DNA of 64,000 bases from Egibacteraceae bacterium (GTDB lineage Bacteria > Actinomycetota > Nitriliruptoria > Euzebyales > Egibacteraceae): NCBI GenBank assembly GCA_030446775.1, contig JAUJMQ010000006.1, forward strand, positions 1 to 64,000, read 5' to 3'. Every line of letters begins with the position of its first letter. Within the stretch, counting starts at the first letter, position 1. The position numbers were made by a program, and so were the translations under genes. This document shows positions 56,660 through 63,808 of this stretch, piece after piece. Under the pieces are notes generated by a model. That model worked only from the letters and a program-made list of their open reading frames with translations, did no database searches and had not been told where the DNA came from.

Positions 56660-56779
56660 GTGTCCTCCCTGATGGATCTGCCGCACCGGTCTGCCGGCGG
56701 CGCCCCGGCGTCGGACTGCGGGCGCCCGGCCCTGATCATGCCGCGCGCGACCCCTGACGCGCCCGACGCCGCGCTCCAG

Positions 56780-57058
56780 GCCGCCGGGTGTTTGAGGTGC
56801 GTCCTGGAAGCCGCCTCCCGGAACCTGCCTCCCGGAGGGAGTCGTTGAACGGAAGCCGCCCGGCGTTTGAGGTGCGTCCTGAATCTGCCTCCCGGAGGGA
56901 GTCGTTGAACGGAAGCCGCCCGGCGTGTGAGGTGCGTCCTGAAGCTGCCTCCCGGAGGGAGTCGTTGAACGAAAGCCGCCCGGCGTTTGAGGTGCGTCCT
57001 GAACCTGCCTCCGGAGGGAGTCGTTGAACGGAAGCCGCCCGGCGTTTGAGGTGCGTCA
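56780..57058 (+). repeat. Tandem array of the 60-bp repeat (one partial and four complete units)
   Basis: A partial unit (56780-56805 plus a short link) is followed by four head-to-tail units at 56821-56880, 56881-56940, 56941-57000 and 57001-57058. Period is exactly 60 bp apart from one missing C in the last unit. Each holds CTCCC-GGA-GGGAG, then GTCGTTGAAC, then GCCGCCCGGCG and the edge TTTGAGGTGCGTCCT. Units differ at only one to three positions. It lies between the divergent SLC12-like gene and ettA and is not a CRISPR (no spacers). Confidence 0.95.
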
Positions 57059-57064
57059 TAGGGT
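57059..57064 (+). promoter_or_regulatory. -10 box TAGGGT of ettA, abutting the repeat array
   Basis: TAGGGT follows the last repeat's GGTGCGTCA without a gap, and the TTG start of ettA is 47 nt downstream of the box. Confidence 0.5.
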
Positions 57065-57111
57065 GGTCGGTCGTGGTCGATCCGCGATCGCAGCCGGCGA
57101 AGGTCTGAGCC

Positions 57112-58785
<1,674 letters not shown>

Positions 58786-58925: not shown

Positions 58926-60095
58926 TTACACGTCGGCGGACGAAAAGCTGACGGGAAGCGCGAACCCGAGCACGGGCGCGAGGCGGCGCAGCGTCGTGCC
59001 CGCCCCCACCTCGGCGGCCTCGTCGAGGATCCGGATCGCCTCGGGCGTGTCGAGGTCGTCGCGGATCGCCCTGTCGAACGCTGCCGCGAGGTCGTCGCGC
59101 TCCCCCTCGGTTCCCGCCGCCTTCTGCCACCGCTTGAACCCGCAGGCGGCGTCGGCGAGCTCGGTGTCGTCATAGGACCAGTCGGCACGGTAGTGGTGCT
59201 CCAGCAGGTAGCGGCGGACCGCGCCTGCCTCGTAGCGCTCCAGCAGGTCGCGCACGAACACGAGGTTGCCCAGCGACTTGGACATCTTGACCCCGTCGAG
59301 GGCGACCATCCCGACGTGCATCCATACCCGGGCGAACGGACCCTGCCCGGTCAGCGACTCGCTTTGGAGGATCTCCGCGGAGTGGTGCGGGAAGATCAGG
59401 TCGCGGCCGCCGCCGTGGATGTCCACGACGGCGCCGAGCTCCTCGGCCACCATGACCGAGCACTCGATGTGCCACCCCGGCCGCCCGGGACCCCAGTCGC
59501 TGTCCCAGCTCGGCTCGTCGGGGGCGCTGGGCTGCCACAGCAGGAAGTCCAGCGGATCGCGCTTGCCGGCGGCCTGCGGGTCTCCGCCCTTCTCGGCGAA
59601 CTGCGCGAGCATCCCAGGGCGGTCCAGCCCCGACAGCTCCGCGAAGCGCCCGGAGGCGGCGGTGTCGAAGTAGATCCGCCCGTCGGGCGTCGCGTAGGCA
59701 TGGCCGCCGGCGACCAGACCGCGGACGGCCTGGACGATCGCCGGCACCGTCTCGGTGGCCAGCGGCACCGCGTCGGCGGGGCGCACGCCGAGCCGGTCGA
59801 TGTCGGCGTCGAACCGCTGCACCTCGCGCCGTCCGAGCTCGAGGTAGTCCACCCCCAGCTCGCGGGCGCGGCGCAGGATGTCGTCGTCGACGTCGGTGAC
59901 GTTGCGCACCGAAAGGACCCGGTGGCCGACGTGGGTGAGCACGCGGGTCAGCGCGTCGAAGCTCACGTAGGTGAACGCGTGCCCGAGGTGGGTCGAGTCG
60001 TACGGCGTGATCCCGCAGACGTAGAGGCGGACCGTGTGCCCCGCAAGAAAGTCCCGCACCGCCCGGGCACGCGTGTCGTACAGCCGCATCCGCAT
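58926..60095 (-). CDS. mshC: Mycothiol biosynthesis cysteine ligase MshC
   Basis: A 389-residue ATP-dependent ligase that joins Cys to GlcN-Ins. Related to cysteinyl-tRNA synthetase, but with the MshC form of the first motif (YVCGITPYDSTHLGHAFTYV instead of CGPTVYDxxHxGNxR), with NVTDVDDDILRRARELGVDY, GWHIECSVMVAEELG and the KMSKS loop VKMSKSLGNLVFVRDLL. It lacks the C-terminal anticodon-binding domain of CysS. ATG at 60095, 7 nt behind TAGGCT (60103-60108), leaderless. Intact. Partner in the pathway to Mca. Confidence 0.9.
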   Translation of the reverse strand: MRMRLYDTRARAVRDFLAGHTVRLYVCGITPYDSTHLGHAFTYVSFDALTRVLTHVGHRVLSVRNVTDVDDDILRRARELGVDYLELGRREVQRFDADIDRLGVRPADAVPLATETVPAIVQAVRGLVAGGHAYATPDGRIYFDTAASGRFAELSGLDRPGMLAQFAEKGGDPQAAGKRDPLDFLLWQPSAPDEPSWDSDWGPGRPGWHIECSVMVAEELGAVVDIHGGGRDLIFPHHSAEILQSESLTGQGPFARVWMHVGMVALDGVKMSKSLGNLVFVRDLLERYEAGAVRRYLLEHHYRADWSYDDTELADAACGFKRWQKAAGTEGERDDLAAAFDRAIRDDLDTPEAIRILDEAAEVGAGTTLRRLAPVLGFALPVSFSSADV

Positions 60096-60432: not shown

Positions 60433-61128
60433 TCAGAACAGCTCTGGATCGCCGAGGCCGGCGGCGGCACGGATCGGCGCCCACGTCTGGCGATGCAGGC
60501 GGCAGGGTCCGTGCTCGGCCAGCGACAGCCGGTGGTCGGGCGAGGGGTAGCCCTTGTTCGACGAGAACCGGTAGGCGGGGAAGTCCGGGCAGACCGAGGA
60601 CATGAGCGTGTCGCGGTGGACCTTGGCCACGATGGAGGCGGCAGCGATCGATGCGGAGCGGGCGTCACCGCCGATGATCCGCTCGTTGCGCGTGCCGTAG
60701 CCGGCCAGAAAGTCCCAGTTGCCGTCGACCAGGCACACGTCGGGCCGCGACGGCAGGGCGTCCACCGCCCGGGCCGCCGCGAGGCGGATCGCCGCGGTCA
60801 TTCCGACCTCGTCGATCTCGGCGTTGGAGGCCGAGCCGATGCCGACGCCGACCGCGAAACCCGAGATCCGCTCGGCCAGCTCCTCCCGGCGCCGCGGGTC
60901 CAGGACCTTGGAGTCGCGCAGCTTGTACATCCGGTGGTCACTGGGCAGCACGACGGCCGCGTACGTGACCGGCCCCGCCCAGGCGCCGCGACCGACCTCG
61001 TCGACGCCGGCGACGAGGGCGCCCTCGTCCCACCAGCGTCGCTCCAGGCGCAGCCCCGGCACGTCGGGCAGCCGGCGGCGCCTGCCGTTGGTGTACTGCA
61101 CGTTGCGGCGCTGGCTGGCGGGCAGCAT
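60433..61128 (-). CDS. rnhB: Ribonuclease HII
   Basis: A 231-residue RNase HII that removes ribonucleotides from DNA and RNA-DNA hybrids. ALVAGVDEVGRGAWAGPVTY holds the DEVGRG motif with the Asp-Glu metal pair; LRDSKVLDPRRREELA, VCLVDGNWDF, IVAKVHRDTLM and FSSNKGYPSPDHRLSLAEHG complete the family. An N-terminal basic extension of about 30 residues (RRNVQYTNGRRRRLPD) is somewhat unusual. ATG at 61128, 7 nt behind TAGCGT (61136-61141), leaderless; an in-frame GTG at 61137 is less likely. Intact. Confidence 0.93.
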   Translation of the reverse strand: MLPASQRRNVQYTNGRRRRLPDVPGLRLERRWWDEGALVAGVDEVGRGAWAGPVTYAAVVLPSDHRMYKLRDSKVLDPRRREELAERISGFAVGVGIGSASNAEIDEVGMTAAIRLAAARAVDALPSRPDVCLVDGNWDFLAGYGTRNERIIGGDARSASIAAASIVAKVHRDTLMSSVCPDFPAYRFSSNKGYPSPDHRLSLAEHGPCRLHRQTWAPIRAAAGLGDPELF

Positions 61129-61135
61129 GGCCGTC

Positions 61136-61141
61136 ACGCTA
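61136..61141 (-). promoter_or_regulatory. -10 box TAGCGT, leaderless rnhB
   Basis: Ends 7 nt before the rnhB ATG. Confidence 0.6.
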
Positions 61142-61241: not shown

Positions 61242-61478
61242 TCAGCCGACCCGGCGGCTGACCGCGGCCAGCACCTCTCCCGGCTCGGCATGCCGGCCAG
61301 TGGCCCGCTTGCTGTAGACGACGTCGCCGTCGACGCCGACCTCGAACACACCGCCGCTGGAGGGCACCAGGGTCAGCTCGGCGATGTCGTAGCCGTGCTC
61401 GGCGAGAAGCTCGGCCGCCAGACCGGCGGCACGCTCGGCGTAGCCTCAGACGTTGCAGTACTCGATCGTGACGCGCAC
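61242..61478 (-). CDS. SelW/Rdx-family protein with in-frame TGA, candidate selenoprotein
   Basis: Reading through codon 11 (TGA, 61446-61448) gives a 78-residue thioredoxin-like protein. It starts VRVTIEYCNV-U-GYAERA and continues AAELLAEHGYDIAELTLVPS, SGGVFEVGVDGDVVYSKRAT, GEVLAAVSRRVG, ending at TGA 61242-61244. Every segment fits the SelT/SelW/SelH family, and the TGA falls exactly at the second position of the CxxC/CxxU redox motif; the following Gly-Tyr is also found in animal SelW (CxxUGY). Start GTG 61478 with GTGAGGGGG before it. It lies 33 bp downstream of the malic enzyme gene, probably in one transcript. A read error of TGC to TGA is the main alternative, but the hairpin at 61414-61430 argues for selenocysteine. 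Confidence 0.8.
61414..61430 (-). promoter_or_regulatory. Candidate bacterial SECIS hairpin
   Basis: On the minus strand GCCGCC-GGUCU-GGCGGC: a perfect 6-bp stem with a five-base loop GGUCU, the SelB-contacting loop known from E. coli fdhF. The loop begins 21 nt after the in-frame TGA, within the range reported for bacterial SECIS elements. A weaker lower stem (GAGC with GCUU) extends it. Confidence 0.75.
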
Positions 61479-61511
61479 GCGTGGCCCCCTCACCTGTTGT
61501 GTCCGGGTGGT

Positions 61512-62930
<1,419 letters not shown>

Positions 62931-62944
62931 GCGGGCCATCCTGC

Positions 62945-62950
62945 CAAACT
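62945..62950 (+). promoter_or_regulatory. -10-like CAAACT, possible leaderless start
   Basis: Ends 7 nt before the ATG of the SDR gene. Weaker than the other boxes (C in the first position). Confidence 0.35.
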
Positions 62951-62957
62951 GCGCGGC

Positions 62958-63808
62958 ATGGATCTGGGAATGGACGGCTGGGGTGTGCTCGTGACCGGGG
63001 CGTCCGGCGGGATCGGCTCGGCGACTGCGCGGGCCTTCGCCGCCGAGGGCGCGCGGGTGGCGGTGCACTACCACCGCTCGCGCGACGCCGCGGAGACGGT
63101 GGCCGCCGAGGTCGGCGGCGTGGCCCTGCAGGCCGACCGGCGCGAGGAGCGGGCCGCGGACCGGCTCGTGCCGGCGGCCGTTGCGGCACTCGGTCGTCTC
63201 GACGTCTGTGTCGCGAACGCCGGCGTGTGGCCGCGCGAGGACGTGCCGGTCACCGGGATGGATCTGGACCGCTGGTCGGCGCGACGATCGACGCGAACCT
63301 CACCGCCACGTTCCTGACCGCCCGTGCCTACCTGCGCCACGCCGCCGCGGCACGTGCCGGCTGCCTGGTCCTCGTCGGCTCGACGGCGGGCCGGTTCGGC
63401 GAGGCCGGCCACGCCGACTACGCCGCCGCCAAGTCGGCGATCACCGGCGGGCTGCTGCAGTCGCTGAAGAACGAGGTCGTGCGCACCGCCGCCGGCGCCC
63501 GCGTGAACGCGGTGGCGCCCGGTTGGACGGTGTCGCCGATGACCTCGCGCGACCTCGACGCGGCACTCGTCGAGCGGGTGACCCGCACGATGCCGTTGCG
63601 CAAGGTCGCCACCGCCGACGACGTGGCTCGCGCGATCGTGTGGCGGCCCACGCCCTTGGCCGCCGGACACGACACCGGCGCGCTCGTCACGGGGGCGGGC
63701 GGCATGGAGGGGCGGGTGCTGTGGGGCCGCCCCGGCGGACGACGCCTCGCCCCGCCCGTCCCCCCCGATCCCCCGCCCCGAGCCCCGGCCCCGAACCCGC
63801 CCAGATAG
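62958..63808 (+). CDS. Short-chain dehydrogenase/reductase, frameshifted
   Basis: An NAD(P)-dependent SDR of about 255-280 residues. GVLVTGASGGIGSATARAFA is the TGxxxGIG cofactor loop, VCVANAGVW the NAG motif, LVLVGSTAGRF the Ser region, and HADYAAAKSAITGGLL the YxxxK catalytic pair; NAVAPGWTVSPM follows. A frame break near 63275 lies just before the TIDANLTATF segment. The end after ALVTGAGG is Pro/Arg-rich and may be out of frame, so the native stop could be near 63720. Substrate unknown. Divergent from the malic enzyme gene. Confidence 0.85.

Follow-up and report, generated by a model that had tools for sequence, protein, structure and literature searches.

SelW-like selenoproteins are listed in bacterial surveys published from 2005 to 2026 (PMC1088965, PMC1794560, PMC2398784 and PMC13188914, in the available portions of each). 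They outnumbered every other family in the Sargasso Sea set, with 48 genes (PMC1088965), and in the GOS survey they were, along with SelD, the most widespread, with 427 sequences (PMC2398784). A table in a study covering over 5,200 organisms shows 35 and 35 for SelW-like (PMC5029168), and the 2026 inventory gives the family as PF10262 with a CxxU motif and one Sec (PMC13188914). Under Actinobacteria, the available part of PMC1794560 has a single SelW-like entry, Symbiobacterium, and the accessible text of PMC9312934 yielded no mention of SelW or Actinobacteria. A search of the open-access literature turned up no study of Sec or of SelW from Nitriliruptoria.

The gene described here shares with the bacterial SelW-like (SELENOW-like) selenoproteins the same profile, the CxxU motif, the in-frame TGA and a downstream bSECIS-like hairpin; it differs from them in host lineage, a Nitriliruptoria-type actinobacterium. 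It lies in the window, by which we mean the whole 64,000-nucleotide stretch of DNA analysed (Table 1). Judged by its sequence, it is a genuine, well-supported further member of a family that has itself long been known in bacteria. We consider it very probable that the locus encodes a functional selenoprotein of the SelW-like type (Rdx family), on the basis of its observed frame and family, the sequence and conservation of the hairpin, and the presence of Sec genes in the genome.

Table 1. Features of the selW-like locus and its neighbours, in window coordinates.
Feature	Position	Strand	Details
selW-like CDS	61242..61478	minus	78 residues plus stop; GTG start; putative Sec at codon 11; terminal TGA
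GTG start codon of selW-like CDS	61476-61478	minus	
TGC codon 8	61455-61457	minus	Cys of CxxU
TGA codon 11, putative selenocysteine codon	61446-61448	minus	second redox position, C-N-V-U-G-Y
Terminal TGA stop of selW-like CDS	61242-61244	minus	
Shine-Dalgarno-like GAGGGGG	61485..61491	minus	6 nt ahead of GTG; judged by eye
Bacterial SECIS-like hairpin	61414..61430	minus	6-bp stem GCCGCC/GGCGGC; loop GGUCU at 61420-61424; 21 nt from TGA to loop
Malic enzyme	61512..63074	minus	upstream neighbour of selW; also upstream in L070
Ribonuclease HII (rnhB)	60433..61137	minus	next gene downstream of selW; likewise in L068, L069 and L070
MshC-like (CysS-related) ligase	58926..60095	minus	downstream of rnhB; likewise in L068, L069 and L070

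Read from 61478 down to 61242, the selW-like CDS consists of GTG, nine codons, TGA, 67 codons and a final TGA. This last codon was taken as the true stop because nine of the 26 TGA-bearing loci listed end nearby with TAG or TAA. The initial annotation had proposed a SelW-like gene with an in-frame TGA at codon 11, within CxxU, and its coordinates proved exact. Profile searches, run with C substituted for the TGA residue, placed the protein over the cut-off of both Pfam Rdx (PF10262; residues 2-74 on profile positions 1-73 of 74, E 3.4e-21, 75.6 bits against 22.6) and TIGR02174 CXXU_selWTH (55.5 bits against 34.2). The best NCBIfam match was SelTWH_Campy (NF041051); at 84.2 bits it fell under the cut-off of 88, and this assignment was dropped. 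The sole Rdx match in a six-frame search of the window's genome (assembly 60% complete) was the selW locus itself, on contig C32, with one internal TGA.

A phmmer search of the PDB matched the window protein to solved bacterial SelW-related proteins, in whose alignments the internal TGA falls on a Cys. The AlphaFold2 model of the product had a mean pLDDT of 92.9, and the top Foldseek matches of this model were 2obk, 2fa8, 3dex, 2oka, 2ojl and 2p0g (best E 1.1e-8). The model thus predicts for the product a small thioredoxin-like fold, as in the SelW-related proteins of known structure. The Cys-type Rdx proteins SAV_2001 of Streptomyces avermitilis (3dex) and Atu0228 (2fa8) have the same fold and 34-47% identity in structural alignments, but carry Cys at the position of the putative Sec. 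Mouse SelW (2npb), next after the bacterial structures, shares the fold (E 5e-4) but has 26% identity with the window protein; animal SelW has the same CxxU-G-Y context. Eukaryotic SECIS elements sit in the 3'-UTR. They are structurally different from those of bacteria (PMC13188914, available portion).

Nucleotide changes relative to the closest named relative, L068, were counted over 231 ungapped bases. After the TGA, substitutions numbered 23, 10 and 8 at codon positions 3, 1 and 2, and before it, over only 10 codons, 3, 1 and 2. The changes are concentrated at third codon positions.

The distribution of the gene was surveyed in 150 genomes, the window's own included. Rdx matches numbered 36 in 35 of these genomes; 31 had one TGA and five had none. 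Within the window's class, 15 of 66 genomes held Rdx, with a TGA in 14 of the 15. The expectation that most actinobacterial relatives use Cys was not borne out: among the actinobacterial relatives sampled, SelW is more often of the Sec type, with TGA in 31/36 matches. Of the 31 TGA genomes 28 had selA, against 77 of the remaining 119 (Fisher p 0.0044, kinship ignored); matches were over the cut-off in 100 of the 105 selA-bearing genomes, and five of the 77 outside the TGA group were below it.

Named genomes were scanned as well. With a single protein as query the scan confirmed no relatives, and with an alignment as query it confirmed 102, of which 80 were kept; at least six of the 80 loci come from genomes already among the 150. 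A TGA occupied this position in 80/80 kept loci, a count that is no census of Sec versus Cys, as one of the scan's two peptide patterns demands Cys at the second position and its companion, GVFEV.., may be biased towards the Sec-type branch. Record titles among the 80 include Gemmatimonadetes, Chloroflexota, Desulfobulbaceae, Bacillus and Acidobacteria. The closest named relatives were an Egibacteraceae MAG (L068, 75% identity), a Euzebyaceae MAG (L070, 71%) and a Nitriliruptorales MAG (L069, 68%), all from lineages in class Nitriliruptoria, Actinomycetota, to which the window's organism probably belongs as well. Three survey genomes, G005, G014 and G020, belong to the family of the window's genome.

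A tree of 64 rows and 78 columns was built with 34 of the 80 named loci, and six of the 36 survey rows were left out as duplicates of named loci. It was weakly resolved, with eight of 61 inner branches starred. The window protein clustered with L068, L069 and L070 on a branch with SH-aLRT 94, not starred. Four of the phylum's five Cys rows fell outside the Sec rows, with L040 as the exception.

Bacterial SECIS elements are modelled with an apical loop of 3-9 nt, a stem of 4-16 bp and a G within the first two loop positions (PMC13188914, Fig 2A legend), at 16-37 nt from the UGA and with an energy of -7.5 kcal/mol or lower (PMC13188914, available portion). The window hairpin lies within every one of these limits: its loop is 5 nt with G first, its stem 6 bp, its spacing 21 nt and its energy -12.8 kcal/mol (61411-61432). 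When 49 nt starting at the TGA were folded, stability was no greater than that of shuffles (z -0.21). Because this longer fold could not be told from shuffles in so GC-rich a sequence, the analysis turned to the trimmed hairpin, to covariation and to codon choice. The trimmed hairpin was more stable than shuffles (z -2.25), with 6 of 200 shuffles equalling it.

Conservation of the hairpin was assessed across the 31 TGA loci of the survey. GGTCT stands at exactly the same spacing in 25 of them, L030 has AGTTT with the same inner stem, and the five inner stem pairs are all intact in 26. Nine of these 26 leave the outermost pair, 19-35, unpaired. Covariation was limited to one pair, the middle pair 23-31, which is U-A in 12 loci, U-G in eight and C-G in six, and never C-A (Fisher p 0.017). 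The peptides encoded over the stem-loop in the 26 loci are V-GL-T, V-GL-A and A-GL-A (once A-SL-A); A-GL-T is absent. The covariation score was reached by 8 of 500 shuffles with 26 rows and by 3 of 500 with all 31. Two of the five measures in the shuffle tests were unremarkable: pairs altered on both sides (222/500) and further pair types (497/500). Shifting the pairing by 1-3 columns lowered the share of paired cells from 94% to 9-60%. Gly is encoded at the loop in 26 TGA loci, by GGT in 25 of them, against 32 of 211 for the other Gly codons of the same 31 genes. A GGUCU-type loop was absent from all five Cys-type matches.

A whole-genome search with a SECIS model scored the selW site at 64.1 bits, a non-independent value as this site is part of the model, and the next site at 19.1 bits (E 1.44). 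No further selenoprotein gene stood out in this search of the genome, which also missed the hairpin of selD described below.

Five TGA loci (L034, L037, L049, L057 and L061) showed no GGTCT-type hairpin and carry GTG followed by CGC, GGC or AGC at the hairpin site. Folding of two of them gave results no better than shuffles. GTG-type sequences could perhaps represent another SECIS type suited to a different SelB. Similar sequences occur in the Acidimicrobiia loci L089 and L108, the MAG L111, the Gammaproteobacteria loci L104, L123 and L138, and L132 of Immundisolibacterales. Genome G026 lacks the GGTCT-type hairpin, unlike its genus mates G024 and G029.

The initial annotation had named the absence of selB and selC from a complete genome as one observation that would count against a selenoprotein. 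tRNA-Sec, selA, selB and selD, the genes of the bacterial Sec-decoding trait, were each found over their model cut-offs in this 60% complete genome, selB barely so. tRNA-Sec scored 69 bits against the Rfam cut-off of 47, and ARAGORN agreed (tRNA-SeC, anticodon TCA). selA reached 408.6 bits against 267.9, selB, directly after it, 245.7 against 242.25, and selD 352.8 against 125. The first three lie on contig C5 and selD on C75. Among 14 control genomes, the cut-off was reached by tRNA-Sec in five, selA in one, selB in two and selD in two. With family, SECIS-like hairpin, machinery and conservation all in support, the SelW-like selenoprotein reading of the initial annotation has held up.

selD (L025:1501-2433) itself contains one in-frame TGA, in the setting G-U-A-C-K, a known motif. 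Two adjacent strong hairpins lie downstream, the second with a GGUCC loop 32-33 nt after the TGA. selD is likely the second Sec gene of this genome.

In the assembly, selA and selB (L020:7303-10637) adjoin but are split across frames. The selA profile match starts at position 74, with an N-terminal-looking part in another frame (by eye), and the selB region forms two frames when compared with an intact relative. Such breaks would suit a decayed gene, in which the TGA remains, the Sec machinery is dead and the product is a 10-residue stub. Three relatives also fit this picture: in G130 (98% complete), G074 (94%) and G060 (71%) the TGA gene occurs but selA is absent and no selB exceeds the cut-off; absent contigs could be the reason, though not necessarily. 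The same kind of break is, however, seen in the window's EttA-like ABC-F gene (57115-58779), which is broken into four pieces over three frames where G005 has one uninterrupted 649-aa frame. Because this gene is split in like manner, the selA and selB breaks are likelier to be assembly indels, which also fits the 60% completeness. Against decay, too, G005 and G014 hold the selA and selB matches each in long single frames, the selW and selD frames (TGA apart) and hairpins are intact, and the substitutions relative to L068 are biased to third positions. We regard decay as very improbable.

The indel-rich appearance of the assembly bears also on the TGA itself, which might be a normal Cys codon (TGC or TGT) altered by a sequencing or assembly error. 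The errors apparent in this assembly are indels, not substitutions, and the stem of the downstream hairpin is intact in 26 of 31 loci. The TGA is judged not to be a slip of one assembly because it recurs in 31 of the 36 Rdx matches, thus in 30 other genomes of the 150, and at all 80 kept named loci, with the overlap given above. An error of this kind is extremely improbable. Equally hard to credit is that the TGA stands for some ordinary amino acid (Trp, for example, as in code 4) or is passed by near-cognate readthrough, for which the open frame is the sole argument: selW itself ends in TGA where nine of the 26 listed TGA-bearing relatives use TAG or TAA, its internal TGA aligns with Cys of solved homologues, and the genome has tRNA-Sec, selA, selB and selD as well as a SECIS-like hairpin.

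As a functional selenoprotein gene, selW would be expressed as follows. The ribosome would begin at the GTG at 61478 and reach the UGA at codon 11, where SelB carrying Sec-tRNA(Sec) would bind the GGUCU-loop hairpin 21 nt downstream. The UGA would be decoded as Sec, and translation would continue to the true stop at 61242-61244. The predicted product is a 78-residue thioredoxin-like protein with Cys8-x-x-Sec11 between its first strand and first helix. Cys8 and Sec11 most likely would alternate between the selenol/thiol and the selenenylsulfide, and the protein most likely acts as a small redox carrier or reductase. With machinery, SECIS-like hairpin and conservation all present, the locus is a clear example of the kind of selenoprotein gene likely to be truncated or missed in ordinary annotation; the known picture of selenocysteine insertion and of SelW function is unchanged by it.

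The gene neighbourhood was compared in a search of 19 loci, mostly about 3 kb long, and neighbours were found in L149, L068, L069 and L070, of which L149 and L068 are one region of one genome. The arrangement suggests that selW may be co-transcribed with rnhB, but points to no particular functional partner. In L068, about 1.4 kb separates rnhB from the MshC-like gene. In L068 and L069 the gene upstream of selW is not malic enzyme but an SDR gene on the opposite strand. A malic-enzyme match in L069 was weak (33%) and overlapped selW, and was set aside as spurious. The MshC-like protein scored 399 bits for MshC against a cut-off of 485, and 346 bits for CysS against 340. The mycothiol production assumed in the initial annotation would rest on this gene and is no more than plausible. 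Elsewhere in the window, at 56736-57647, a translated ORF beside the ABC-F gene contains near-identical short repeats (like SLREA.SGRTSNAGRLPFN).

A further form of SelW was seen in Verrucomicrobiota. L144, a Verrucomicrobiales MAG from the named-genome scan, has TGA at both redox positions (UxxU) at L144:4001-4228, the same locus as L170. Surveys give SelW-like proteins as CxxU only, in the available portions of PMC13188914, PMC2398784 and PMC1088965, and among the titles found in our literature search no paper announced a UxxU SelW. In a Verrucomicrobiota order, 288 genomes drawn from a larger group included 55 with Rdx, and 13 of these (14 loci) had TGA at both positions: L144 (= L170), L169, L171-L175, L177-L179 and L185-L188. 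A diselenide SelW is a possible identity for the UxxU form. Jointly, these observations could be read to mean that this branch of bacterial SelW has Sec rather than Cys as its ground state, with the Sec form fixed in Nitriliruptoria beside rnhB and the MshC-like gene, maybe as a mycothiol-coupled selenol carrier, and that a Verrucomicrobiota lineage with Sec at both positions makes a diselenide SelW; we put this forward tentatively, as a combination that is rather unlikely to hold. In the genome of L144, the only UxxU genome searched for selB, no selB over the cut-off was found. selA was present in 12 of the 13 UxxU genomes, over the cut-off in 11. Nine of the 14 UxxU loci read ILYUGMUNY, and a similar stem-loop, judged from sequence, follows the second TGA.
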